Assembly: GCF_000003815.2 (NCBI RefSeq)
Contig: NC_049983.1
Coordinates: 3,788,706 to 3,852,705, forward strand
Origin: Branchiostoma floridae
Lineage: Eukaryota > Chordata > Leptocardii > Amphioxiformes > Branchiostomatidae
Reading direction: 5' to 3'
DNA: 64,000 nucleotides
This document shows positions 5,001 to 63,815 of the stretch, piece by piece (the first letter of the stretch is position 1; the number at the start of each line of letters is the position of its first letter). Below the pieces are notes generated by a model. The model saw only the letters and a list, made by a program, of their open reading frames with translations. It was not told the DNA's origin and did not search any database. A program made the position numbers and the translations under genes.

Positions 5001-8000
5001 GCTGGACGGTGGGAGGTACCGACTTCCGACGAACTTTGAACAAGTACTGACGTCATACGTTGGGAAAATCACGTGTCTACAGCACCCGGGTCGGATAGAC
5101 GAAGTTACCAGAGGAGTGAAGCCGGCTTAGGAGTGTGTTTTGCTACCTGGCAAATGGACACCTCTTGGCTGACTACACTCCTTGGCCAGTTTGGTAGTAT
5201 CGTATGACATTGTAGAATCTGCTTAGAGATTAAAGGACAACTAGATGGTCCGGTGATTGACGTGTCTTGAGTGGGAGACCAGTCTATTTGTCTCATTGAC
5301 GGATGGGTATTATTCCTCCCTATCCTTTTCGTGATAATTCGTTGCAAGTTGTTACGCTGACTCACAACATTAAAATGAATAAACAATGATCTCGAGATCT
5401 ATTTAACCCTATCTAGAGGGGGGGGGGGGCTAAAAGTGCCTGCGGCAAATTTGACGTCGTACAACTGCCAAACGACGTGTGCTTGGTGACTTTTCCTAAA
5501 ATCTTGTTGGCAACAATTCTGTGAATTTTTAGTTTGTACATTTGTAAAAAAGGGTTTCTGCCAGGCATATTTTACCAAATTTACTAATTTCAGTTTGAAT
5601 GATGAATTTTCATGGTTTTATTGCTAGACCACCATTGTTAATCTATATCATTTACATCCCGTGTAAGTTTAAGTTAGATTCATATTTAAACATTTTAATT
5701 AAACTTTACCAGTACATCATCCCCTCTAAATTTGGTGATGTTAACCCAATCCGTTTTAAACTTACGATGGGGGGTGGGGTATTAAAAGAGCCGCCCCCCC
5801 CCCTCCCCCCAGGAATCAAAAAATGCATTTTAGCTGATTAATCTGAATTGATATATCTTCACAGATGGTATCCACTACTGGCCCATCTATGGAAGAGGTA
5901 CATACAACATCAACAATCTTCAACAGCTCACAGGGTACGTTTAATTGTTGTCAGCATGGCTTTAGAACCTCTGGATGGATTGTAATGAATCATCATTCCG
6001 GACGTACGTGTTGCCTGGTCCAAGTTTAACCAAACATTACGATTATCTATAGTGTCCTTAAGGTATTTAGGTGGGCCAAATTGGCATTTTGACCTTCCAT
6101 TGTTTTCTCATTAATGAATTAAGAAAGAATGAAGCCGTAACGAATATTAATAGATGGGCATGAAAGAATTCTAAATTTGATTTTGGGGCCCATGTTGATG
6201 ATATCAAGAGCTTTTTTTGCCCCTTGTATTTTTTTCTATGAAAAAATACAGCACTTTGGTACATACCACTGCAATGAAACTATGTTTTTCATGTGCATAA
6301 TGATGAAAGCTACAAACTCACGGTTGCGCAAATTGATACCTGCTAATTATCTGTAGCAATTAGAAAATATTTGTTTTCATCTAAATGAAAAATAATTTTT
6401 TAAATATTAACCCTCAAACACCCGAGTGGGGTCCATTTGGACCCCAAACGCACATTTTGAAGTGCCATTTGAACATTTTTAATCTGAAAAAAAATCCTTC
6501 CGTGATTTTGTCAGTCAATATGTCTTATACCTTCTCCTAAGTTTTTGTAAAGATTGGTACAATTATGTGGAAATTATAAAGAAAGTTTGTGTTCAGTCTG
6601 GACCCCAGCAAAAATGTGCAGTTTTTTAAAACAAACTTTGGAGGCTAACTCCTTAACCACTTACAGTATGACTACCAAACTTTCAGACAATAATAAGAAT
6701 GTAAACTTCAATCATCACAAAAAAATCTGTGTCATCAACATGTAATATGACGACATTATGACGTCATTTGCCTAATCAGAGCGGCCATCTTGGATTTTCA
6801 CCAATGACGTCATGAAATTAGCATAAATTATAAATTTTAAGTCATGAAAATTACATTAAATTTCATAAAATTTGATTGTTGTCGGAAAGCAGGTGTGGTT
6901 TACCAAGAAAACCTTGTTTAAATTGAAATTGTCAAATTTTGGCAAAAATATGCCTGTTAGAATATGGTTGCCATGGCAACCACCAAAAAATAAAAAAACT
7001 TTTTTTTTTTACCAAAAACTTTTGCAAACAATATTTTGTGATAAATTACCAAGTTTCGTAGCTTTAGCTCTAGCCGTTCATGAGTTATGCGACATAAATG
7101 TTGCTGAGGGCCTCAAAATCCCCCTATCTGGTCGGAATAGGTTTAGTGCAAAACGTGGTCCTTCTGAACTTTTGCATAAATTATGATAATGAGTTGGAAT
7201 TAGCAACACCTTAACATCTCAAAATATTCCTCTTACATTGACGAAGCTATGTATATACAATGATCGCCGATAAGAAATGGTACTGAGATTTTATGAACAA
7301 AACATTTTGTGGTCCGTTTAGACCCCACTCGGTCATTTTAGTCGCAAAAAAAGGTCGGGTGCTTGAGGGTTAAACTACAGATCGTTAGTAGATATCAATT
7401 TGCGCAACCGTGAGTTCGTAGCTTTCATCAATATGCACTTGAAACTTAGCTACTAACTGTGGAGTCCTCTATATATTGAAAGGACTAACACAAAGAGCAC
7501 TCGCACCCACGTCCGTCTCCTAGCTCTATAACTCAATTCTGCTTCTTTCTGTGTCCTTCTTCCTACTGTTCATATACTACAAAGAGGTCTAGTGTGTCTG
7601 GCGTGGCGTGTCAAGGAAGCATGCAAATTAGCTGGTACTACATCTATGTCACTATAACCCACCTTTTTCCAAACTTTGTAGTCTCTACCAGACCCCGGGT
7701 CACTGGAAAACCGTAGAAATGGAACAAATAGAGTAAGTCGGCCAGAGGAGTGAACAGTGCGTAGTACAGACCGTAGGTCGCGTACTGTTCCCTGGCCGGC
7801 TTACTCCTCTATTCGTTCCATTTCTACGGTTTTCCAGCGACCCGGAGTCTGGTAGAGACTACAAACTTTGGGTCGCTGTTTCTGCGGTCGATGTCGTCTC
7901 GCCGTCTGACGATTCTGCTGTCGTCGTTGTCTCTGCCGTCGCTGGTGATGTTGAAGTAGTTTCGTCTCCTACTCGCGCTGGTTTGTTGTACGTCTTGACA

Positions 8001-27641: not shown

Positions 27642-29415
27642 GTAGAGGTGGTCACTTGTAAAACTTTGACTGTATGTCATAGGTCAGGTAGTCCTTATGT
27701 AGGTGTGGTCAGTAGTACAGGTTTGACTGCATATCAAAAGCGAGGTGGTCATTGTGTAGAGGTGGTCATTAGTACAGGTTTGACTGTATATCAAAAGCGA
27801 GGTGGTCCTTGTGTAGAGGTGGTCACTAGTACAGGTTTGACTTTATATCAATAGCAAGGTGGTCCTTATGTAGAGGTGGCTACTAGTACAGGTTTGACTG
27901 TATATCAATGGCCAGGTGGTCCTTATGTAGAGGTGGTCATTAGTACAGGTTTGACTGTATATCAAAAGCCAGGTGGTCCTTATGTAGAGGTGGTCACTAG
28001 TACAGGTTTGACTTTATATCAAAAGCGAGGTGGTCCTTGTGTAGAGGTGGTCACTAGTACAGGTTTGACTTTATATCAATGGCCAGGTGGTCCTTATGTA
28101 GAGGTGGCTACTAGTACAGGTTTGACCGATATCAATGGCCAGGTGGTCTTAATGTACAGTTGGTCATTAGTGCAGGTGTGACTGTATATCAATAGCATTA
28201 GGTGGTCCTTATGTAGCAGTGGTCGCTAGGACAAGTTTGACTGCATATCAATCGCCAGGTGGTCCTTATGTAGAGGTGGTCATTAGTACAGGTTTGACTG
28301 TATATCAATGGCCAGGTGGTCCTTATGTAGAGGTGGTCATTAGTACAGGTTTGACTGCATATCAAAAGCGAGGTGGTCATTGTGTAGAGGTGGTCACTAG
28401 TACAGGTTCGACTTTATATCAATAGCAAGGTGGTCCTTATGTAGAGGTGGCTACTATTACAGGTTTGACTGTATATCAATAGCAAGGTGGTCCTTATGTA
28501 GCAGTGGTCGCTAGGACAAGTTTGACTGTATATCAATCGTCAGGTGGTCCTTATGTAGAGGTGGTCATTAGTACAGGTTTGACTGTATATCAATGGCCAG
28601 GTGGTCTTTATGCACAGTTGGTCATTAGTACAGGTGTGACTGTATATCAATAGCAAGGTGGTCCTTATGTAGCAGTGGTCGCTAGGACAAGTTTGACTGT
28701 ATATCAATCGTCAGGTGGTCCTTATGTAGAGGTGGTCATTAGTACAGGTTTGACTGTATATCAATGGCCAGGTGGTCCTTATGTAGAGGTGGTCATTAGT
28801 ACAGGTTTGACTGTATATCAATGGCCAGGTGGTCCTTATGTAGAGGTGGTCATTAGTACAGGTTTGACTGTATATCAATGGCCAGGTGGTCCTTATGTAG
28901 AGGTGGTCATTAGTACAGGTTTGACTGTATATCAATGGCCAGGTGGTCCTTATGTAGAGGTGGTCATTAATACAGGTTTGACTGTATATCAATAGCAAGG
29001 TGGTCCTTATGTAGAGGTGGTCATTAGTACAAGTTTGACTGCATATCAATGGCCAGGTGGTCCTTATGTAGAGGTTGTCACTAGTACAGGTTTGACTGTA
29101 TATCAATGGCCAGGTGGTCCTTATGTAGAGGTGGTCACTAGTACAGGTTTGACTGTATATCAATGGTCAGGTGGTCCTTATGTAGAGGTGGTCATTAGTA
29201 CAAGTTTGACTGTATATCAATGGCCAGGTGGTCCTTGTGTAGAGGTGGTCATTAGTACAGGTTTGACTGTATATCAATGGCCAGGTGGTCCTTATGTAGA
29301 GGTGCACGTGGTCATTAGTACAGGTTTGACTGTATATCAATGGCCAGGTGGTCCTTATGTAGAGGTGGTCATTAGTACAAGTTTGACTGCATATCAATGG
29401 CCAGGTGGGCCTTAT
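27642..29415. repeat. 57-bp minisatellite, about 31 units
   Basis: The unit GGTGGTCCTTATGTAGAGGT followed by GGTCATTAGTACAGGTTTGA, CTGTATATCAATGGCCA repeats every 57 bp for about 1.77 kb. Because 57 is 3 x 19, the + frame gives a 19-residue period (GGPYVEVVISTGLTVYQWP). Some units end CAATAGC and carry an in-frame stop. Variants AAAAGCGA, AATAGCAA and AATGGCCA cluster, pointing to local unit turnover. There is no start-codon context, splice site or promoter, so coding function is unlikely. Confidence 0.95.
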
Positions 29416-29419
29416 GTAA

Positions 29420-46400: not shown

Positions 46401-49400
46401 ATGTGTCTGCATGTGTACCACATGGGTGAGGCTGAGAACTTGTATTGATCACCCCTCATACACAGTGTACTAAACAGAAGTCTGTCTTCCCCCCCTTCAG
46501 TCAGGTGTTTGACAGTGAGGCCATGGCCCAGATCCCCCGACTCATACTCAACCAGTTCCGCTGGCTGGACAGGATCGTGGACAGTAAGGTACGGACTAAG
46601 ATGGCATTGTATAGAAGTTGGAGGGGCTGGAAACTGCTCATGCACTGCAGGCTTTTAGCTAGGATTTCATCATATCCAAATACTGTAAATGCATTTAAGT
46701 TGCGGGGATTTAATTTTGCGGTAGCGAGAAAAAGAACTTTTCGCGGTGGATTTAATTTCGTGGTAACACCGTATAGACTACAGTCTAATACTACTCTAGA
46801 AAAATGTTCGCGGTGGTTTTAAGTTCGCGGTGAAGTGGTCACCGAACATTAATCCACCGCGAACATTTCTGCATTTACAGTATATTGCCATGCATGCAGC
46901 GAGCAAGTATTGTAGATGGGTCTGCTGAAAAATGTTTGACATTCATAACTCTCTGAAACATACCATAAGATAATGTGTTGATGTGTTTCTCAGTTACTCT
47001 GTAGGAAGATGTTAGAGATGCTGGGGATCACCACACTGGGCATCCAGCGAGATATAATATCCTGTCTACCTGAGATAGTATAGGATAATGTGTTGATGTG
47101 TTTCCCTGAGATAGTATAAGATAATGTGTTGATGTGTTTCTCAGTTACTCTGTAGGAAGATGTTAGAGATGCTGGGCATCACTACACTGGACATCCAGCG
47201 AGACATCATCTCCTGTCTACCTGAGATAGTATAAGATAATGTGTTGATGTGTTTCCCTGAGATAGTATAACTATAAGATAATGAGTTGATGTGTTCCCCA
47301 GCTGTTATGTAGGAAGATGTTAGAGATGCTGGGGATCACTACACTGGACATCCAGCGGGACATCATCTCCTCTCTACCTGAGATAGTATAGGATAATGTG
47401 TTGATGTGTTTCCCTGAGATAGTATAAGATAATGTGTTGATGTGTTCCCTTGAGATAGTATAAGATAATGTGTTGATGTGTTCCCCTGAGATAGTATAAG
47501 ATAATGTGTTGATGTGTTCCCCTTAGATAGTATAAGATAAAGTGTTGATGTGTTCCCCAGCTGTTATGTAGGAAGATGTTAGAGATGCTGGGGATCACTA
47601 CACTGGACATCCAGAGAGACATCATCTCCTGTCTACCTGAGGTCATCGAGGACACTGAACACAACAACGTGGCCGCACAGCTCAAGTAAGGACAGTGTTG
47701 TAAATGCAAGATGTTTTTTGTTCCTGATTATGCGTAGGTCCCAATTGGTAAATGGTGACCTGCCAGGCAGTCCCTGGGTTGTTTTCTGGCACTTTTGAGC
47801 GTAACCCCTACATTGCCTTGTGCAATGCCCTGAAGCTACCAGGTAATATTCTGGCTGGGCCCTTGATTTTTTGTTTGCCTTGGATTTAAAATTAACCCGG
47901 GACCAGGCAAGAAATAGACTCCGTAACTTACCCTTGAGAACACTAAAAAGGTATCCGGCACTCCGACCAGTCGCCTTCATCACAATCAATAATGACTCAG
48001 AACGTAAACTGGCTTCAGTTACAAACAATTGTGATCTTAGTATGAATATGTGACGTCATCAATTGGTCAAACATACCATTATAAGTTAATTACGGCCCCC
48101 GACGCGTTTGACGAATTGCTGACGTCACGTATCAGTGTTGGAAGAAAGTTTTGCATTGTACTATAATAACTATCAACACAAATGAGCTTCCGTGAGACCT
48201 TTTTATGTCTTTTCTCTTGCAGAGACAAGTTGAATGACAGACAACTCATGGTGGCAGTCTTGGATGCTCTCTCTAACCTGAATGTTCGACCAGATCTTAT
48301 GACTGAGGTTAGTTCTTTACAAATAAAAGTCTACCATAATTCAGTTTTCTTACAATAATTAATTCTGTACCAATGAGTTTTGTACAATTTTTGGTAGTCA
48401 CTATGACGGTCATTTTTTTTTCTTTGGAAAGAAGGTTATGTTTTTGGTGCAGTTTGTGTGCATGTCTGTTTGTGAACATTTCAAATGGTCTGGAAAACAA
48501 ATTCAAGTTTGATTATCCCCCAAGCATCTGTCTAATTTAGTGCAGTGGAAGTTTTGGTTCTGACATCTCGTGTTCTACACATACAGTGGTGATGCCATTC
48601 TTTAGTGGTAGATAGCTCATTGGACATTGCAAGTGTTTGGGCCTCCAGATTGTTTTTTTGGGAACTGATTTTTGTTTACAACTTTGGGCGACAGACTGAT
48701 TTTGTTTAAAACAACAATAACTTAACGAAATCATTGACAGATCATCATTTTTATTGCTATGTAGGTAGCCTATTTACAAATAAATAAAGGTGATAACGTA
48801 CATGTACACTTACTGATATTGGTTAAGATGCCTATGAAAGCTAGGCCCCATCAACAATGATCAGTATTTGAGGTTTTGTTCTTATTCTATCCTCCTGATA
48901 TTGTTCTCTGTATCAGATCCGTCTGGCTGTTCTACGGAAGGTTCCCGGAGTAGAGCTACAGGACCTGCCGGTGGTGGTCAAGTTTCTACTGCAGTCTGTC
49001 TCTACCTATGATGCTGTGGAGGTACTCAAAATATTGTGTTCAATCATAAATCAATAGGATATAATATATATGTCAGGGTAGAGACTCTGACCCAGTAGAG
49101 TCAGTGATAATACCGGTAGAGAACCTGATCGGAGTTCCTATTGATCAGTGTTCTAGCCAGGCATGTGTCTTTGGACTTTTTTAGGACGTTGAATGTGTCC
49201 AAAAAAGTTTAAAATGGGACTACTCTGATATGTGTCATTGCTCCACTGAAAAGCAGTGCAAGAGCACTGAGCTTGGACCACCCTGGATAAAGATTACAGA
49301 AATAAATAAATAAATAAAATAGACTGGAATCTTAGAAAAACAGATTAGTTTTGAAAAGAAGAAAGCCGATGGAGATCTTTACTGGAAGAGATTCCGATCA

Positions 49401-52400
49401 GGGTCTCTGTGAATAAGAACTTAGAATGAGATCTCTACTGGCAGAATTGCCGATTCTATCAGATCGGAGTCTCTACCATTACATGTACATGTCTAAATAT
49501 ATTTCATGCAATCATGTACATCTCGCAAACATCATTTAGGATCAACAGTGAACTGAAATTGCCAACACAAAAATTTTTAACTGATCATCTACTCCAATCT
49601 TTATCAAGTAATCAGCAATACACTGCTTCTTTGGCGTCATGTTATGCAGATATACAATGTGTAGAAGACATGACTCGATAAGCAGTGGATTGCACATTGC
49701 ACAAATTGTTGTAACTTGTAGTCTATAGTGCCATGCACCATCTCTGAGGGATGGATCTACTAGTAATGCCATGATGTACATAATATTATACAATTGATGG
49801 CTTCTTTAATTCCTCTTGCAAGGAAGTCTTTCCAGATCTAAAAATAAGTCTTAGTGTCTGGGCATTTCTCTTTATGTACATCTATAACTACCGACTTGAC
49901 ACTTGACTCTGTGACTTTTGTTTCTTGGCTAGGTTGTACGAGAATTACGGGACCAGCTAGACTTGACACCAGGTCTGTCTGCAGACAGGGGAGCTGCAGC
50001 AGGGAAGTAAGTCTGGACTTTTTCATCTACAGGACTGCAACCCTTCACAGTAGTGTGTAGTGCAGTACTGTAAAAGTTGGTTTCTGTTTGAGATTGTTAA
50101 AAGCAATGCCACGGCCCAAGGAATAGTCATTGTACAGTTTTGTAGTCCAACACTGCAGAGTTAAGCCAGCATAGATTTCGCACTTGTGGTGTAGTGCTTT
50201 AGTACCACTGGCTTTAGAAATAGGGTTGGACAGGTTTTCTAAAATTCACTTGTCCTATCGGGCAAGCAATTAAAAGGTATTACTTGCCAAAACCAACTTT
50301 TCACTTGCCCAACCTAAAATTTCACCTTTGTATGCGTTTTCACTGCCAGCAATGGAATTCCTATTGTTGCCTCTATTTTTTTTCTATTTTTAACATTGCT
50401 TGCTGTCATAGCTGTAAAATGTGACAAGTATATCAAAATCTCACTCAATTAAAAAAATCTTACATGTACTTCAAGCCCCATTGAGCAAGTGGAGTAGGCC
50501 ATTTCCTGGACAATAGGGCTAGTGGACTTGTCCAACCCTGAGAATACTGAAAAGTTCAGCAGCAGCTGTCTGCCATGCTGTTCTCATCTAGTGGGAGGCA
50601 GCCAGGAACGGAAATGTGGCACTTGTTGTACTTTGTTTGCGAAGCTTTGTACCATAACTTGCATTTCTGTATTAAAAGTAAAGTTGAACTACATGTACAA
50701 AATCTATGTGTTTCTCTTAGCTCTTCCCGTGGCAGTGAGGCCCTGATACTGGACGCCATACGGTCAGGTATCACCTTCCAGAAGGCTATTGCTGAAGCCT
50801 GGATAAAGGTATGATTGTGATGTTTTTTGTGTGTGGCATGGGTGGGTGTGTGTGGGTGGTAGTAGGTGGGTGTGGGTGGATGTGGGTGGGTGGATGTATG
50901 GGTGGGGGCATGATTATCACAATCATTTAAACTCCATGTCAGGTTCACGGATTCATGTTCAGGTTCCGATCCGGACTTAGGAGTCTGGACCTGATAAATC
51001 CAGACCTGAACCCATGGCTGACATTTGTGGTAGAAAGAATTTGAGTTACTTGTAAAAATTGCATGTTGGTATGAATTTTGCTTGCAGATTGAGAAATATA
51101 CAAAACGTATATAAAAAGATCATAATATCGTTGAAGATGCAAGTATACAAAAGTAACGGGTTCCGCACTGGTGTTCCAGTGCTGAATCAATGGGTCGAAT
51201 CGGCCTCAGCACTGGTTTTCTAGTGCTGAAGAAACGTCAGCACTGGTTTTCCAGTGCTGAACGGCCTTGTTGCAGTGCTGAAGCTCCCTCAGCACTGGAA
51301 TTCCAGTGCTTAACTTTTCCGAGCACTGGTTTTCCAGTGCTGAACTTTTCCGAGCACTGGTTTTCCAGTGCTGAACTATTCCGAGCACTGGGGTTTTCCA
51401 GTGCTGAACTGCCGTCAGCACTCGGGTACCAGTGCTGAACTCGCGGCGGAGAGGCGGCGAGCCAGTTCAAAGGTCATTCAGCACTGGTTACCCAGTGCTG
51501 AAACCGGCGTCAGCACTGGAACCGAGTGCTGATATACAAAAGTAACGGGTTCCGCACTGGATTTTCCAGTGCTCGGGAACTTTTCAGCACTGGAAGACCA
51601 GTGCTGAAAAAACGTCAGCTCTGGGCTTCCAGTGCTGACGATTATAAAGCACTGGAACGTTCCAGTGCTGAACGTAATATTCATTCGTAGCATGCGTCCG
51701 TACGGCTGAGTTATTTCCTTTCGACTTGTTACCTTGTTTGGCGGAGATTGACATTACACATGACATTGACAACAACAGTTTTATTTAATAATGAAAGAAT
51801 AAAAAGAGGCCATGACTTTGAGCTTTTATTGAATTGTGTGAATGTGATAGATATAGCCCTTTCGGGAATCATTTCGGTGGCCCTGAAAAGGGCCGGGGTA
51901 ATTGTAGACAGCAGATCAGTCTTCGTTGTTATTCGTGTCTTTATTTTAAAGACGTTCGTTATTTTAAAGACGCTACTTTGCCGCACAAGAATGTATTATC
52001 CACTTGTAACTACCTACTGTTCGTAAAAACAAGTGAATTCTCTTTACCACGCCGATAGAACTCTTGTAACTAACAATAGGTAGTTACAGATAGACAACTT
52101 ATAGGTGATGATTTGTTCATTTTGAATTTTTACCGGGGTGCCATTTATGTATTTTTTTTCTCAGTCTGTATATATTTTTTTTCTGATGCACTACGTATAA
52201 ATATGTTTTGTTCCTTAGATTAGAGATTTTGCGTTTTTAGTAGTTCTTTTCACCAACTTCATCAGGCTCCCTTTATACATTTTTCAAACAATTGAATAAT
52301 TGTATAGGGAAAGAAGAGATATAGTTTAGGCACATTACGTGAAAAAAGTTTGGTACAAATAATATAACGTCACTTGAAGTTGCTCTTGTTGTTTTATTGT

Positions 52401-53922
52401 GCGTGCGTGTGTTTGGCAGTGTGTGTGTGTGTGTTTGGCAGTTTCTTTGGTAGGCTCAGTCGTCCGTGCAGCTCACGGTTTAAAGTCGACACAACAAGTG
52501 CGGTCCCTCTTGTTGTAACTAAATTGGGACCTTCCAATGACCTTTGGCCAAGAAAATTAAACGTTAGACAATGGTGTTACATGTGAGGTGAATGAGTAAT
52601 GGACCATGTTTACGGCTCGAGCTGCGGTAGATATCTATGTATATAACGTTACCACAGTTGTTTTGACAAGTTACTAACGTGATTGAAGACGTTTTAGACA
52701 GGTTAATTTCGTTATAATTGTAAACAGCAGCTCATGCCGCCTTGAGTCAGCACTCGGTTTCCAGTGCGGAATATTTGTCAGCACTGGATTTCCAGAGCTG
52801 AAACGTCCTCAGCACTGGATTTCCAGTGCTGAAACGTCCCCAGCACTGGATTTCCAGTGCTGAAACGTCCTCAGCACTGGATTTCCAGTGCTGACAGGAG
52901 GACATTCAGTGCTGAAGCTGCCTCAGCACTGGATTTCCAGTGCTGACGGCGGCTCAGCACTGGACTTCCAGTGCTGACGACTACTTCTGCACTGGTGTTC
53001 CAGTGCTGACAGAGGAGACCGTTACTTTTGTATATTTGCGTTGAAGATCATAATAAAAGTACACTATGTAGTTAACATAAAGTAAACACAAAAACAGCAA
53101 TGTTTGCATCTTTTTCCAGCAAAAATTTCACAATCTATTGTAAGGTTTTGTAAGGTCAGCATTGTTTGTTGCTTGTTTCCTCTACTAGGCTGTAGAAAAT
53201 GTCCCAAATGCAGCAGAACACAAGGTAAGAAACAATCAGTTCTAGTTTCAACATTTAAAAGGAAGGTAAAGGTGCACTTAAGTCCAGAAAAGTATCTGTC
53301 ACAGTGTTTTTTTTTCCAGTAGAATCTACCTGCGGTTAGGCTGGTACCTTGGACGATATGAAATACACTGTGTTGTATATATATATTTATTTTTCATTTC
53401 CACCTGAATAAACACGAATTTCATTCCAAAGTGCACCAGAGGCTGAAAGAATTTTGTGTCCTTGAACAATAATCTGAATCAGTCTAAATCGACAGTTTGG
53501 GCATAAATGTCGAGTGAAAAGTGCACTAAGAAGGCCAATGTATGATAAGATATCGAAGACCACCTATTAACAAGATGGCTTTTTCCTTACTGCACCTGAC
53601 ATACATTCAGTTTGTAATTTCCGTAACATATAAATTGCATTCAGCCATTGTTTAAAAGATTGTTCGGATCACAGTTCGGATCCCATCTTTTGAGGAAACA
53701 TGGACCGAGGTTAATGCTCATTTCAGTCTTTTTGTTGATGTTTTCTAGGATATAGATGTTCTTGTTCTGCTGTTGCTCCACTCTACTGCGGTGAGTAAGA
53801 CACGGCGCAGGGCCGTGGAGGGGCTGCTGAGGGCGAAGGTTCGCGCTGGTAGGTTCACTCACGACCTGCTTAGGAAAACCTTCACTACTCATGCACAGGT
53901 TAGTAGGAAGGGGATATCATTT

Positions 53923-53964
<42 letters not shown>

Positions 53965-56900
53965 TGTGTGTACATGTGTGTGACTGTGTGTGTTTGTGTA
54001 CATGTGTGTGTGTGTGTTGAATGTGTTTGTGTGTGCATGCATGTGTGTTAAATGTTTGTGTGTGTGTGTGTTAAATGTGTGTGTTTGTATGTGTGTGTGT
54101 TTGTGTAAAACTATGTGTGTGTGTATGTGTGTATCTGACTGTGTGTGTGTGTGTGTGTGTGTGTGTTCATCCGTGCGTGTTTGGATGTGTGTTAATGAAC
54201 TACAAAAAGATAATTAGTCTGGAAACTCTGATATAATACAGAGGTATGATCTTCGAACACCTGACAGTCTGTATATCATTTGTTTTTATTAATAAATGAT
54301 TTGTCACAAATACTTGGTGATTTTTGTTTAAAATCAAGTTCTGAACTATGCAATAAACTTGGTATTCAGAACTGCTTTGGTCAAGATACTAACTACAGTA
54401 CATGTATGTGTAGGGACAAGTGTAGATTTTATTAACCATAACTGTGTTGTATGTTGGCTCCAGATCCTACGTGAGTACTTCCAGTCAGTGTTGACCATAT
54501 CAGAGGTTCTCCTGCGGTCCCCAGAGCCAGCTGTGGAGTTGTTTGGGTGCCACATGTACCAGGAAGCCTTCAGTGCTTTTGACATGTACTGTAGACAGGT
54601 ATGGGATTAACAAAGTTCTTTATTCACAATTACTGCGATACATTCATTTGTGGAGATTTAGATAAAGCGGTAGCAGGGAAATGGAGTTTTGCATTGGTTT
54701 TGAGTTCACGGTAGCGCCATCTACTGTAGTGTCACATACTGCCGTGGAAAAATATTCACAGTGGTTTTAGGTTCACTGAGAATTGGCAACACGAACATAA
54801 AACCACAGTGAACATTACTGCATTTACAGTACATGTTTTTCCAGAGCCGAAGTTTCGATCTGTCATCTTCATGGTCATAATGACTGGATCACGTTACACC
54901 ATGGGCTGGAGTTTAGGGTCCTATAGTTTTGGCATGTTGACGGGAATTGCATGATTTGTCATTTAGGATGATGACTAAAGCCGGTGATTTCATGTATGAG
55001 GAAGGTTCAGGCATCAAACCTCTGCACGTAAATGAGCTCAACATACTTATCAAGAAGGGTTGACCTGGTGTGCTCGGCAAAATACACCAGTCATGCTAAC
55101 TAAAATGAAAAGCGTCAATTTTTGCCCTTACATGTAGGTTTGACCATTTTACACACATCTTAATTCATGGGCCTCCCAAAAACATCAATTATGACAATGC
55201 TATCACTGTGGTGAAGACAATTCAATGTTTAAATTCATTGTGGGACAAGTATCTTTTTTTGTAACATCAAATGACCCAAATTGTGCTTGGTATACAGGAG
55301 GTGGTTGGTTCCCTGGTGACCCACATTGGGAGCGGAGTGACCAGTGAGGTGGACTCAGCGCTGGACGTGTTGTGCCAGCTGGTCAGGGACATGCCGTCCG
55401 CCATGGCACCATTCTCTGTCTTCATCAAGGTGAGAATCAAGGGCTTTCCCTTGCAAACCTTGCACTTATGAATGACTTACGTGGACCATAGTCCTCTTTT
55501 CACCCACAGTAAGTCAGGGAGGACTGAAGCCTTACTCTGGATAATAGTTCACCAATCCTAACACCGACCCCAGTTCAGTGTAAGGCGGTGAGACCGAGAC
55601 AGGGGGCGACACAGGTTACCTGGCACCCATTACCCACTACTGCAGTCACATGGTTTCAAAGTCACATGTGGTTCCGATGCCTGCAGTAGAAGGGTCCATT
55701 ATGTGAACAAGGCGAATGGAATCCAACTTTTTCAATTGACATAAAGTTCCAACTAATAAGGTCATTTACCAACACAGATAAACTCAATGCTATTGTTCTG
55801 TTTCTAATACCACAGGGAGTTCTGGACTACCTGGACAACCTGACAGTTTCAAATTGTGTGATAGAATTTCTGTTTTTAGTTGAGAACATGTTCATTATGT
55901 CTTTTAAACAAACACAGATGAACTTTCATGCTTATTGTTATGATACCACAGGGAGTTCTGGACTACCTGGACAACCTGACAGTTTCAAATTGTGTGATAG
56001 AATTTCTGTTTTTAGTTGAGAACATGTTCATTATGTCTTTTAAACAAACACAGATGAACTTTCATGCTTATTGTTATGATACCACAGGGAGTTCTGGACT
56101 ACCTGGACAACCTGACAGTTTCAAATTGTGTGATAGAATTTCTGTTTTTAGTTGAGAACATGTTCATTATGTGTTTAAACCAACACAGATGAACTCAATG
56201 CTATTGTTCTGTTTCTGATATACCACAGGGAGTTCTGGACTACCTGGACAACCTGACGGTAGCACAGATCCGTAAGCTGTTCTCCATGCTGGGTACCCTG
56301 GCGTTCTCCGGTACTCAGGACGGAGCACACATCCAGGACGACATGCACATCCTCATCAGGAAACAGCTGTCCAACACTACACCCAAGTACGCTGGACACG
56401 ATTCCACTCATAATATTCTGTACTACCTTTTTCCGAGAATGATAAATTACAGTAACTGGATTTTGTTTTGTGGCGATTTGATTTTGTAGCAGGGTCGAAA
56501 TGTAGTATTTGTGGTGTTATTGAGTTCACAATTGCAAGTTTTAACAAATAACCTTTTCCAGCATGATCACATGTACAATGTACATGTAGGCACCTTCTAA
56601 AATCTTAATGGAGCAAGTAATAATGATGTTTGTGCAGTCTGTTCTCAATACATGTAGTTCATGCACCTACATGTACATGTACATGTACACTTGTACATGT
56701 ACATGTGTGCATTCAGGTACAGAACTGACTATGTGTACTGCTAATATATTATGGAAAAAAATATTTCGTACCCAACAAGAAATATTATTTCTTCCATGTT
56801 TTGACTTTGCATGACTGTAAACTGTTTTAAAATGGTCCGTTATTGTGTTTTGCAGATACAAGAGAATGGGGGTGATTGGGGCCATCATGGTGGTTCGAAG

Positions 56901-60389: not shown

Positions 60390-62389
60390 TAACTAGTGTT
60401 GACTTCATTTTTGGAAGCAGAGGGAGACGAAAAGCCCCACCTTTTCTACAGTTTGTGGGTTCTGTGACTTCAAAAGAATAATCAACAACTACTGTCAATT
60501 ATCCATTTAGTGTGAATGGACCTTTGCTGTGTTCCACTTAGCATACAAAAAGGAACAGCCACTTAACAGCTGACTGTCGCTGAGCACAACAGTGAGAAAT
60601 CTTTCTGTGCCATTAATCTTTTTTGTACATTCTAACAATTACCATGTTAAAAAGATGAAGGTTTGCCTCTGGCTTTTGTTTCTATTTTAATCGTCAGGCT
60701 TTCTTTTTGTCTGCCAGCCAAACACCGTACAGTTTAGGGTCAAAAGAATACTTGACAAGATAGAAGTAGAAAGCCACATAGAACACATCAAAAAAACATT
60801 TTAAAACAGGTTCAAGCCTAAACATATAACACTTAAAGATTAATTCAAAAGTTTGAGCCAAAGCTATATAAGGACTGAAGGAGAGTTATAAGCATCATCA
60901 GATGCTAATCTAAAAACGGTTTTGTTGGTTTTGGCAAGGAGCTCCCTGGTTTTGGCAAGGAGGTTGAACCTCCTTGGTTTTGGTAAGCCCCGCAGGCTGG
61001 ATTGATTCATGAGTATAATTCTCCAAGCCATGGTCAGGTTCTATAGCTAATAGCTTGTTACAATCTGTCAGAGGTGGACCCCTAGTTCTGCCTCAGTATT
61101 AGATCTATAGAAAGAAAGTTTATTTGCAAGTTCATGCCTGTAGGCTAATTGCAAGACTAGTACATGGTAGAAACAAGATAGGGAATATGCATGTGAAACA
61201 ACAAGAGGGGCCAGTAGAACACAAAGAAACAATATCCTGACTCCCGGGATTTGAACCTAGGCAGCCTGATCACAAATACAACGTGCAAACCACAACAAAC
61301 AAACAACGTCAAAAGCTCAAAGCTGTTGGCGTGGTGGCAGTTTGGCAGTGCCTAAACCCCACTGTTACACATGTAACAATGAACTGCGATAAATATTAAT
61401 ATCATTCAAAGAGACTACTCAAATACGATATCTAGATAGGTTGGGTTTGACTTCTTTTTTGGAGGCAAAGACAGACAAAGAGTCCCGCTTTTTCTATAAT
61501 TTGTGCTCAGAACTGTTCAAGGTGTGCACGTGGACAGTTTGGCAACGCTTGAACCCCACTAATATCCAGATATGCGAATAATTATCATTATATCAACACA
61601 AAAGCAGATACATGGGGTCATAGTTGGCAGCGTCATGTGTGAAAGTGGAAGTTTTTAGCTTTAATGTATGGCTTCCATGAACTTTTACGTTTTACCCACA
61701 AAATTGTTTGAATTCACCTTTGTGATGGTGAAACAAAATTGAATCATGATAAAAAGTAATAATTGTTGTAGATTCTATTCTCACTGATGATCTTTTCTCA
61801 AATCTTGAATTTTTTCTTTAAATTGCACTTCATATTTCAATCCTGGAGTACTGTTGAAATACTTGATATGCTTTTGTTTACACTATACTTCAAATTATAG
61901 CCTTTGGTTGGGTGGGGACATAAGCACCATATATAAGATGGGGGGGTAATGTTACATCTGGAAATTATGGACTTCCTCAGAAATTTGTGAAGAAGCAAAA
62001 TAGTTCTACAAGACAGTAGTGTGACAAAACACATACTATATTATCAGATTGTTATGGTTTTAGGTGTGGATGTCGTTCCATTTAAAATGTATCCTGAATA
62101 GTTGAATCTAAATATAACCCCTTTTTTTAATGGGATAGTCCACATTGTTCAAGGTAATTCACACCTTTTTTCCAGCTTCTGCTTGGGGACCATGGGTTTG
62201 TAGGGTCATTAATTGTTTTGCCACAACTCAGTGAAGACAGCTGTTTTTTTCTCAGTAGCTTTGTAAAACTCAGATACTTCAAGTTTTGAATTATGCAAAT
62301 AGTTACGCCAACGAATAACAATAGGGAGCCCAGAGTCATAAAAGACAATGGTTCTTTCACCAGGTGTCAATGTTGGTCAGGCTTATTCA
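60390..62389. repeat. Further copies of LINE 3' UTR sequence
   Basis: The phrase GACTTC-TTTTTGGA-GCA, CCC-TTTTCTA, TTTGTGGGTT recurs at about 60398-60470 and 61448-61510. The 3' end GTTTATTTGCAAGTTCATGC, CTGTAGGCTAATTGCAA recurs at 61116-61153. CCTCCTTGGTTTTGG repeats lie at 60940-60990. No exon was recognised. Confidence 0.6.
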
Positions 62390-62945
62390 NNNNNNNNNNN
62401 NNNNNNNNNNNNNNNNNNNNNNNNNNNNNNNNNNNNNNNNNNNNNNNNNNNNNNNNNNNNNNNNNNNNNNNNNNNNNNNNNNNNNNNNNNNNNNNNNNNN
62501 NNNNNNNNNNNNNNNNNNNNNNNNNNNNNNNNNNNNNNNNNNNNNNNNNNNNNNNNNNNNNNNNNNNNNNNNNNNNNNNNNNNNNNNNNNNNNNNNNNNN
62601 NNNNNNNNNNNNNNNNNNNNNNNNNNNNNNNNNNNNNNNNNNNNNNNNNNNNNNNNNNNNNNNNNNNNNNNNNNNNNNNNNNNNNNNNNNNNNNNNNNNN
62701 NNNNNNNNNNNNNNNNNNNNNNNNNNNNNNNNNNNNNNNNNNNNNNNNNNNNNNNNNNNNNNNNNNNNNNNNNNNNNNNNNNNNNNNNNNNNNNNNNNNN
62801 NNNNNNNNNNNNNNNNNNNNNNNNNNNNNNNNNNNNNNNNNNNNNNNNNNNNNNNNNNNNNNNNNNNNNNNNNNNNNNNNNNNNNNNNNNNNNNNNNNNN
62901 NNNNNNNNNNNNNNNNNNNNNNNNNNNNNNNNNNNNNNNNNNNNN
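62390..62945. other. Assembly gap (556 N)
   Basis: The bases are undetermined. All open frames of about 200-270 codons here are artefacts of the gap. Confidence 1.
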
Positions 62946-63815
62946 TTTATTCATCATCAGGTACCTTTTCATTAGCCAAAAAACAATTGTCAAACAAAGC
63001 GCGCAAAGCCATGCGCAGCCTCAAATGTTTAACTCGTTCATCAGTTTCACCCAATAGCCTTCTGAGAGTATTTGATTCCTGTGTTAAACCAAGGAGGTTG
63101 AAAGAGGGCCCATTCTGTTATATGGTTGTGAAATTTGGGGTACTGAGAAATTAAATGATACATCTCTGATCGAAATTACACACAACCAATTCTGCAAAAA
63201 CATTCTTGGAGTCTCTAGAAATAGTTGTAGTAGTTCAGCATTTAGGTTCGAATTAGGTAGATTTTCCACTAAACATAGATATATCCGTTTGACTTGTAAA
63301 ATATTGGCTATGTTTAACACAAATAGATTTTACTAAGCATCCATTTACAAGTACAATGTAAATGCACTCTTGGAACAGCACAACTCTGTTGTAAATGGCC
63401 GAAGAAGATCATTGTTGCAGCGTGTTAAAGAAAAAACTTGATTATAGTGGATATTCTTATCTCTGGTACTCTGACAACTCACTCCTGTATATGTATGTAA
63501 TCTGATAAGGAACAGAATTACCGATATGTATATCCAGACGTTTCTATACAAGTATAGATATAGATTCCCCACACCCACAGACGAACAGAAAGCCACTTTT
63601 CTCTTGAAATTGCAGAACCCACAAATTGTAGAAAAGTTGAGGCTTTCCGTCTGCCTGTTCCCAAAAAGAAGTCAAACCCAACCTGTTTAGAAATAGCTCA
63701 CACTAGTATCAGAATATTGTTTACCGGTATAACTGTTTATTGCCACTTGTATATCTCCTATGTTTACACCATGCACTTGCAATTATCCCTCGAGCATGAG
63801 CTTGCAAATAAACTA
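62946..63815 (+). mobile_element. LINE ORF2 C-terminal fragment and 3' end, plus orientation
   Basis: About 62960-63330 encodes KKQLSNKARKAMRSLK, then after an insertion PILLYGCEIWGTEKLNDTSL, FCKNILGVSR and FELGRFSTKHRYIRLTCKIL, the region after the reverse-transcriptase thumb of CR1-like LINEs. Between the two halves sits CCAAGGAGGTTGAAAGAGG, the inverse of text seen at 60955-60990. The 3' end CAATTATCC..GAGCATGAGC, TTGCAAATAAACT is at about 63779-63813. Confidence 0.8.

Follow-up and report, generated by a model that had tools for sequence, protein, structure and literature searches.

A 64,000-nucleotide stretch of the Branchiostoma floridae genome (C5:3788706-3852705 in the 513.4-Mb assembly; the window below means the whole of this stretch) contains a non-autonomous DNA transposon with 21-bp terminal repeats, 9-bp target-site duplications and two subterminal arrays of dyads, which are spaced palindromes lying mostly whole helical turns apart. 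Its interior carries a histone-type stem-loop on the minus strand, which a first-pass annotation of the window had overlooked. The reading proposed here, with a probability of roughly 0.64, is that the dyads of the phased arrays would be bound by dimers and that the interior would be the relic of a parent element whose gene possessed a histone-type end. The coordinates of all features are collected in Table 1.

Ends and copies of the element

The element is inserted in an intron of a homologue of FANCD2, an animal DNA-repair gene. The site was placed from the flanking exons, which, when joined with the next exon, match FANCD2 (PDB 3s4w, E 7.5e-12; Pfam PF14631, E 1.9e-16). The ends of the element are GCAARTATACAAAAGTAACGG, and the terminal repeats are mutually inverted. 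From the window alone, the ends TATACAAAAG and a target duplication of TA, AT or TATA had been suggested. Both were dropped because other copies extend to GCAAG/TTTGC, which belong to the element. The first-pass annotation was correct about 16-bp inverted ends and fell five bases short on each side in placing the limits at 51144 and 53034; since GCAAG/TTTGC recur terminally in other copies and the 9-bp duplication lies outside them, the true ends are 51139 and 53039.

Seventeen loci with dyads were read (the window, L001-L013 and L072-L074; the short pieces L068-L071 are not counted). Both ends were located from the end sequence alone, the duplication not being used, in seven of them, which bears out the expectation that the ends are reproducible between copies. 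Perfect 9-bp duplications flank four of these seven, namely the window, L001 (TGGGGCATT), L005 (CGCAATAAC) and L074 (AAAGCTAAT), and the other three have imperfect ones (7/9 in L011 and L073, 6/9 in L003). L007 (GCCTATGTG) and L009 (CTGGGATAA) also carry perfect 9-bp duplications. Nine loci had been screened with such a duplication as a requirement (one mismatch tolerated), and only these two yielded ends, which turned out to be GCAAGTCTACGAAA / GCAAAACTACGAAA, although end sequence was no search criterion. The shared ends and the 9-bp duplications together therefore identify the element as a transposon. A divergent subfamily is represented by L005 (1122-2500), which has the ends GCAAAACTACCGAAGTCACGG / GCAAGTATACCGAAGTCACGG and in whose dyads one arm is often GCACTAG or GCACTCG.

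Within the left array lies a further copy of the left end that lacks the five outermost bases, GCAAG, so that the terminal motif occurs three times in the element of the window (two ends and the internal copy). The junction of this copy recurs in L001, L003, L012 and L072-L074; as judged from such comparisons, the internal left end is inherited by several element copies. The interior is non-coding, as had been described: its longest frame starting with ATG, GTG or TTG has 92 aa, and a Pfam search of four interior open reading frames matched no family. An imperfect inverted repeat of 88 nt (52004-52091; fold -31.2 kcal/mol, z -5.8) is also present in the interior and overlaps a piece (query 291-388) that is serially repeated at other loci, for example at C5:14386201-14386815.

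Dyad arrays as candidate binding sites

The arrays comprise 22 dyads of the form TCAGCACTGG-N3-6-CCAGTGCTGA, 14 on the left and 8 on the right, and two half-sites; a dyad measures 24 bp. The first-pass annotation had described about twenty palindromes at both ends, each with a GCACTGG stem and a four-base loop. The palindromes, their number and their placement stand, and the stem and loop lengths required revision, since the stem is 10 bp long (TCAGCACTGG) and the loops have 3-6 bases. The pattern GCACTGGNNNNCCAGTGC with up to three mismatches has 25 matches in the 64-kb window against 1.35 expected, a number reached by 0/100 shuffles, and 18 of the 25 fall within the element. Genome-wide, exact dyad cores occur 1322 times, compared with 6 for a reversed control pattern. 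The number of dyads passing a strict filter is 22 in the window, 23 in L001 and 18 in L009; as arrays of tandem motifs whose number varies between copies, the ends are composite in the manner of Foldback-like elements. The loops are mostly T-rich on the plus strand at both ends of the element, and, because the dyads are self-complementary, the two arrays show both direct and inverted similarity to each other; they may or may not be inverted copies. Rfam matches to miRNA and snoRNA families over the arrays were rejected, as all lie far below gathering and are explained by the palindromes.

The earlier proposal that the stem matters more than the loop holds between subfamilies. The left arm of the window was compared with those of L012, L009, L006 and L010, of which L006 and L010 are near-identical, so that the four comparisons are not independent. 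Differences were found at 38/720 sites of the core stem, 28/306 of the outer stem, 47/220 of the loops, 168/660 of the spacers and 22/84 of the terminal repeat; the dyad core therefore changes less than the terminal repeat itself. These figures bear on the alternative that the arrays are a passive minisatellite, the stems of which would seem conserved only through recent slippage copying of short units. Such copying would account for the 31-bp units, for runs of identical units such as the one including three AACGTCC spacers in the right array, and for the difference of one dyad between the window and L001. However, homologous units across subfamilies differ at 21-26% of sites in loops and spacers and at 5% in core stems, no more than 3.9% of core sites differ in 217 pairs of window units with flanks diverged by 50% or more, and odd spacings retain the helical phase. 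The minisatellite explanation is already weakened and is considered highly improbable.

A protein-binding site, a hairpin recognised during transposition and a cruciform had all been suggested as the function of the palindromes. If the dyads acted as DNA cruciforms or RNA hairpins, the pairing itself would be kept, and the strong folding of a single dyad and of a run of three (-17.2 and -56.3 kcal/mol; z -5.9 and -12.8) is in line with this idea. However, the compensatory changes for which the first-pass annotation had proposed to search among genomic copies are lacking in the window and rare among the copies. Stem changes in the window are one-sided in 22 cases and two-sided in none. In the strict set (146 dyads of 12 copies with at most two core changes; spacings below 130 bp), 177 changes are one-sided, against four two-sided ones that keep the pair and nine that break it; a looser filter (168 dyads, some of them half-sites) gave 271, 9 and 29, respectively. 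No covariation above shuffles was detected in 15 distinct dyads out of the 22 in the window, a set from which four dyads with loops of other than four bases and three identical copies were left out. In addition, the arrays of L006 contain the mismatched form GCACTCG...CCAGTGC throughout. Pairing as the conserved property is thus very unlikely.

The dyads are mostly spaced by 31-32, 42-44, 52 and 63 bp, corresponding to 3, 4, 5 and 6 helical turns of 10.5 bp each. When the four odd spacings on the left were jittered, 0.25% of trials gave the observed 10.5-bp fit, or 0.6% when the period was scanned over 10.2-10.8. Taken over 12 copies, the cosine at 10.5 bp averages 0.859; for the 45 spacings outside 30-33, the average is 0.705. 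The conserved core, the one-sided uncompensated changes and the helical spacing together make phased dimer-binding sites more plausible than hairpins or cruciforms. The dyad fits a candidate duplex-DNA site read by a dimer, which is the favoured interpretation, and a paired hairpin gains no support; among the functions suggested earlier, protein binding is thus the one retained.

Under this interpretation, each dyad would be bound by a dimer of the transposase or of a partner protein, the phasing would set the bound proteins on one face of the DNA, and either end would fold into a multi-site complex, which the transposase would pair and cut. With a palindromic site, there would be no need for the two arrays to be inverted copies. 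Phased dyad arrays of this kind would be well suited to studying, in a natural setting, how transposon ends with many sites are assembled. Several observations speak against phased binding sites. The comparison with L001, a 97% copy, gave 5/418 stem and 0/88 loop changes, hence no excess conservation of the stem, although these changes are too few to be informative on stem versus loop. The right array, with mostly 31-bp spacings, peaks at 10.4 bp, and spacings of 29, 34, 40, 50, 57, 72, 74 and 120 fit helical turns less well. Furthermore, the dyad filters favour conserved dyads, the copies share ancestry, and spacings above 130 bp were left out.

A histone-type stem-loop and the reading frame ahead of it

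The type of RNA hairpin found in the interior normally serves the 3' ends of histone mRNAs. Its core, GGCCCTTTTCAGGGCC, is the sole exact match in the window of GGYYYTHHTHARRRCC, which we take to be the histone stem-loop motif and which was used as the search pattern; with one mismatch allowed, 1.37 chance matches would be expected in the window, a figure that does not refer to the exact match. The exact motif GGYYYTHHTHARRRCC was absent from the first 282,754 bases of other sequence examined. The Rfam model RF00032 scores 33.2 bits (E 1.6e-7) against 51853-51899 of the minus strand. As in a replication-dependent histone 3' end, the 16-nt core is followed by ACC and a downstream AAAGGGC and is preceded by a stop codon about 20 nt upstream.

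The stem-loop is not confined to the window. The exact pattern of stem-loop and downstream stretch occurs at 17 places in the genome and its control at none; nine of the 17 (the window and L068-L075) were read at the level of single letters, and the hairpin lies within an element in the window and L072-L074. A genome search with the interior as query, in which 40 of 104 candidates were scored so that its counts are lower bounds, revealed at least six other copies that span the stem-loop region fully (query 1-268, 95-100% identity). One copy aligned to query 248 covers the core of the stem-loop, yet is not among the exact places. At least seven further loci share only 67 bp, consisting of the stem-loop and the sequence after it.

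The stem-loop is preceded by the remains of a reading frame. Besides the last codons retained in the window, L072 possesses a 41-residue relic (...IIEDYQAPTRPAQALGDCLFLEIHRHLFDTNNNED) followed by a stop and the stem-loop, L073 and L074 possess shorter pieces, and L009 possesses a 12-residue trace that is weak alone (E 1.5). In L069-L071, which are pieces of another subfamily with dyads, a frame reading EVQR(R/C)LF...EEAG-stop ends 20-29 nt ahead of the stem-loop; in L068 the related frame is present and its stop is lost. Altogether, eight of the nine places read have a related frame that stops 18-29 nt upstream of the stem-loop. With the relic as query, a genome search led to two loci at C17:11595502-11596359 and C17:11281607-11282467, separated by 313 kb, whose open frames comprise 286 and 287 codons. 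At L075, the 286-codon frame is followed by a stop, 18 nt and an intact stem-loop, and the frame at L076 is 99% identical to it. The two frames differ by six synonymous and three non-synonymous codon changes, which leans towards a kept protein, and the 286-aa frame has 13 matches in the genome. Relic and stem-loop thus occur together in two subfamilies, one long frame occurs with the stem-loop, and one near-identical frame exists.

Because the frame of L075 precedes the stem-loop and related frames stop shortly before the others, a histone-type end is proposed for the gene of the parent element. The simplest account would be that the non-autonomous copies are deletion relics of a larger parent, the gene of which ended in a stop codon, about 20 nt, the stem-loop and the downstream stretch. 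The replication-dependent histone pathway would cut and stabilise the parent mRNA, in place of polyadenylation or in addition to it, and processing by this pathway would limit the mRNA to dividing cells. The parent gene may use histone-type 3' ends, as hinted in the nematode element Tm1-HH. If so, a mobile element would use the cell-cycle-coupled histone 3' end for a repeated, transposon-borne non-histone frame, and, with Tm1-HH, the histone-type end would be a recurrent device, testable by 3'-end sequencing. A tentative and more doubtful extension is that the transposon family runs its own gene via the histone mRNA pathway, with a stem-loop and no poly(A), so that transposition would be tied to S phase with sister-copy templates. 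The same trick would have arisen or persisted in Tm1-HH, and the ends would be read by a dimer, possibly of the 286-aa product, on the phased palindromes.

The stem-loop may instead be mere cargo, taken from a true histone gene or from a multicopy gene of the host by Pack-MULE-style capture (MULE, Mutator-like element), which appears rather unlikely. Mutator elements do take up gene pieces, the L075 locus has so far not been placed inside an element, and the authors of the Tm1 study propose an acquired host sequence as the origin of the Tm1-HH hairpin (PMC3169594). Against capture, the 67-bp segment comes after the stop of a repeated frame that is not of histone type, and similarity to the four core histones was found neither in the interior (best E 0.21) nor in L068-L074 at E 1e-5, four of the seven further loci being covered. 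The L075 frame matched no histone family in Pfam, through which alone linker histone H1 was covered. The element region thus has the RF00032 stem-loop of replication-dependent histone genes and not their coding sequence.

The histone-type gene end of a parent element, preferred here, faces several opposing observations. The RF00032 score is 0.8 bit under gathering (34), and no match in the window reaches gathering; the 66-nt stem-loop region folds no better than 27/200 shuffles; and a scan of six other element copies gave no histone stem-loop match at E 0.001. The alignments of at least four copies stop inside the stem-loop, L001, which was read, being one of them. The L075 frame was read within its own locus only. 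At L076, the sequence read covers only the first 12 nt of the stem-loop, and the locus is not one of the 17 exact places; its stem-loop or downstream stretch therefore differs somewhere. Neither Pfam nor the PDB gave a meaningful match to the 286-aa frame, and both dyad binding and stem-loop processing are predictions from DNA sequence.

Superfamily, related transposons and other features of the window

As a non-autonomous cut-and-paste element, the transposon is probably Mutator/Foldback-like, the two indications being the length of its duplications and the layout of its arrays. The 9-bp duplications agree with the 8-10 bp, mostly 9 bp, of Mutator-like transposons, among which the Phantom subclass is marked by a FLYWCH zinc finger together with the MULE domain. 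The PIF/Harbinger, ISL2EU and Tc1/mariner types, with 3-bp TWA, 2-bp AT and 2-bp TA duplications, do not match the 9 bp found here, and the PHIS groups (ISL2EU, Spy and PIF/Harbinger; PMC4482050) were rejected on the same ground. Coral CMITEs (PMC2872659) gave no fit. The 5-kb copy L003 was considered as an autonomous element and rejected, since a reverse-transcriptase frame lies between its arrays (5495-6682; RVT_1, E 4.7e-10) and the three frames examined contain no transposase.

A transposase family with the ends of the element, for which the first-pass annotation had advised looking, was not found. The genome contains 27 loci with the MULE domain (PF10551), and paired ends or a dyad array occur at 0/27, which also counts against the proposed reading; the flanks examined extended about 4.5-5 kb on each side, as the contig allowed, for 17 loci and 1.5 kb for 10. 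Stray single matches near these loci are dyad-like (e.g., L017 and L051) or end-like (e.g., L052 and L063). Some MULE matches fall in the same region of C6 (26-28 Mb) as relatives of the 286-aa frame; as more than 20 kb separates them, this co-location is not a link.

Assignment to another superfamily with duplications of 8-9 bp (Merlin, P or hAT) is unlikely, although not far-fetched, because only the duplication length and the array layout point to Mutator and no MULE domain has been linked to the element. P elements, however, usually produce an 8-bp duplication, which speaks against them. The 5-8 bp of hAT elements likewise speak against that superfamily, whereas Merlin duplications do have 8-9 bp (PMC4482050). 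Muta1 and Tm1, moreover, combine subterminal tandem arrays and 9-bp duplications as the amphioxus element does (PMC5225508, PMC3169594).

Tm1 and Tm1-HH, Mutator/Foldback elements of root-knot nematodes, are similar to the amphioxus element in their 9-bp duplications (8-10 bp in 45/53 complete Tm1 elements) and in the variable-number tandem motif arrays at both ends. Tm1-HH moreover includes non-autonomous members with a histone hairpin, the part 3' of which is most conserved, and, as a Mutator/Foldback family with such a hairpin, constitutes an independent case. On the other hand, the array unit of Tm1 is a 13-15 bp motif rather than a spaced dyad, its outer 7-bp motifs are asymmetric, and a Phantom-type MULE transposase is known for Tm1, whereas the amphioxus ends are linked to no transposase so far. 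The Tm1-HH hairpin is read as acquired (all PMC3169594), whereas the amphioxus stem-loop trails the stop of a repeated non-histone frame. Among the papers listed by the literature searches, the Tm1 study was the only one on a Mutator/Foldback family with a histone hairpin. From true replication-dependent histone 3' ends, the amphioxus sequence differs in its non-histone, repeated frame and in its sub-gathering score.

Muta1 of Aedes aegypti shares a short terminal motif followed by subterminal repeats (nine copies in Muta1), 8-9 bp duplications and many non-autonomous derivatives with varied interiors. Its repeats are of 12 bp with 3-4 bp spacers in 145-bp terminal inverted repeats, unlike the 24-bp dyads at helical-turn spacing (PMC5225508). 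Galileo of Drosophila, which has several sites for the THAP domain of its transposase in long end repeats, two of them in tandem repeats, comes closest to a tested model of what the arrays are proposed to do; it belongs to another superfamily (P), and three sites have been shown, in 1.2-kb inverted repeats (PMC3688188). Plant MULEs with tandem terminal inverted repeats similarly have a second copy behind the outer one, retained in amplified copies; theirs are long, and dyad arrays are not mentioned in the parts of the text covered (PMC3310237). The earlier statement that no family of this layout has been described can thus be kept in part: in the sources as far as used, subterminal tandem arrays are known from Muta1, Tm1 and Galileo, and arrays made of spaced palindromes were not met in the literature searched.

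Table 1. Features of the transposon (positions in the window; nucleotides)
Feature	Position	Strand	Basis or remark
Whole non-autonomous transposon	51139..53039 (1901 bp)	.	Ends common to other genomic copies
Left target-site duplication GTTGAAGAT	51130..51138	.	Identical 9 bp at 53040-53048
Right target-site duplication GTTGAAGAT	53040..53048	.	As for the left duplication
Left terminal repeat GCAAGTATACAAAAGTAACGG	51139..51159	+	Reproduced in other copies
Right terminal repeat GCAAATATACAAAAGTAACGG	53019..53039	-	Reproduced in other copies
Left array, 14 dyads and half-site 51272-51281	51162..51671	.	Spacings 31-32.5, 42, 44, 52, 63
Internal copy of left end, GCTGATATACAAAAG, without outer GCAAG	51533..51560	+	28 bp identical to 51144-51171
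67-bp segment (stem-loop and downstream stretch) common to seven further loci	51833..51899	-	Genome search
Histone-type 3' stem-loop core GGCCCTTTTCAGGGCC, then ACC	51879..51894	-	Rfam RF00032
Relic of last codons, DTNNNED-stop	51916..51939	-	21 nt before stem-loop; longer relics in copies
Right array, 8 dyads and half-site 52906-52915	52747..53009	.	Dyad scan

Elsewhere in the window, tandem repeats with 151- and 36-bp units, about 90-97% alike, occupy 46965-47558 in the FANCD2 region and include an exon-like stretch, so that they represent either a repeated exon or a variable array containing an exon. A 136-bp unit is present in 3.3 copies (95% alike) at 55807-56257, with exon-like sequence inside. 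The assembly has unknown bases (N) at about 62383-62946, which appear as X in translations. A minisatellite with 31 copies of a 57-bp unit extends over 27642-29418.

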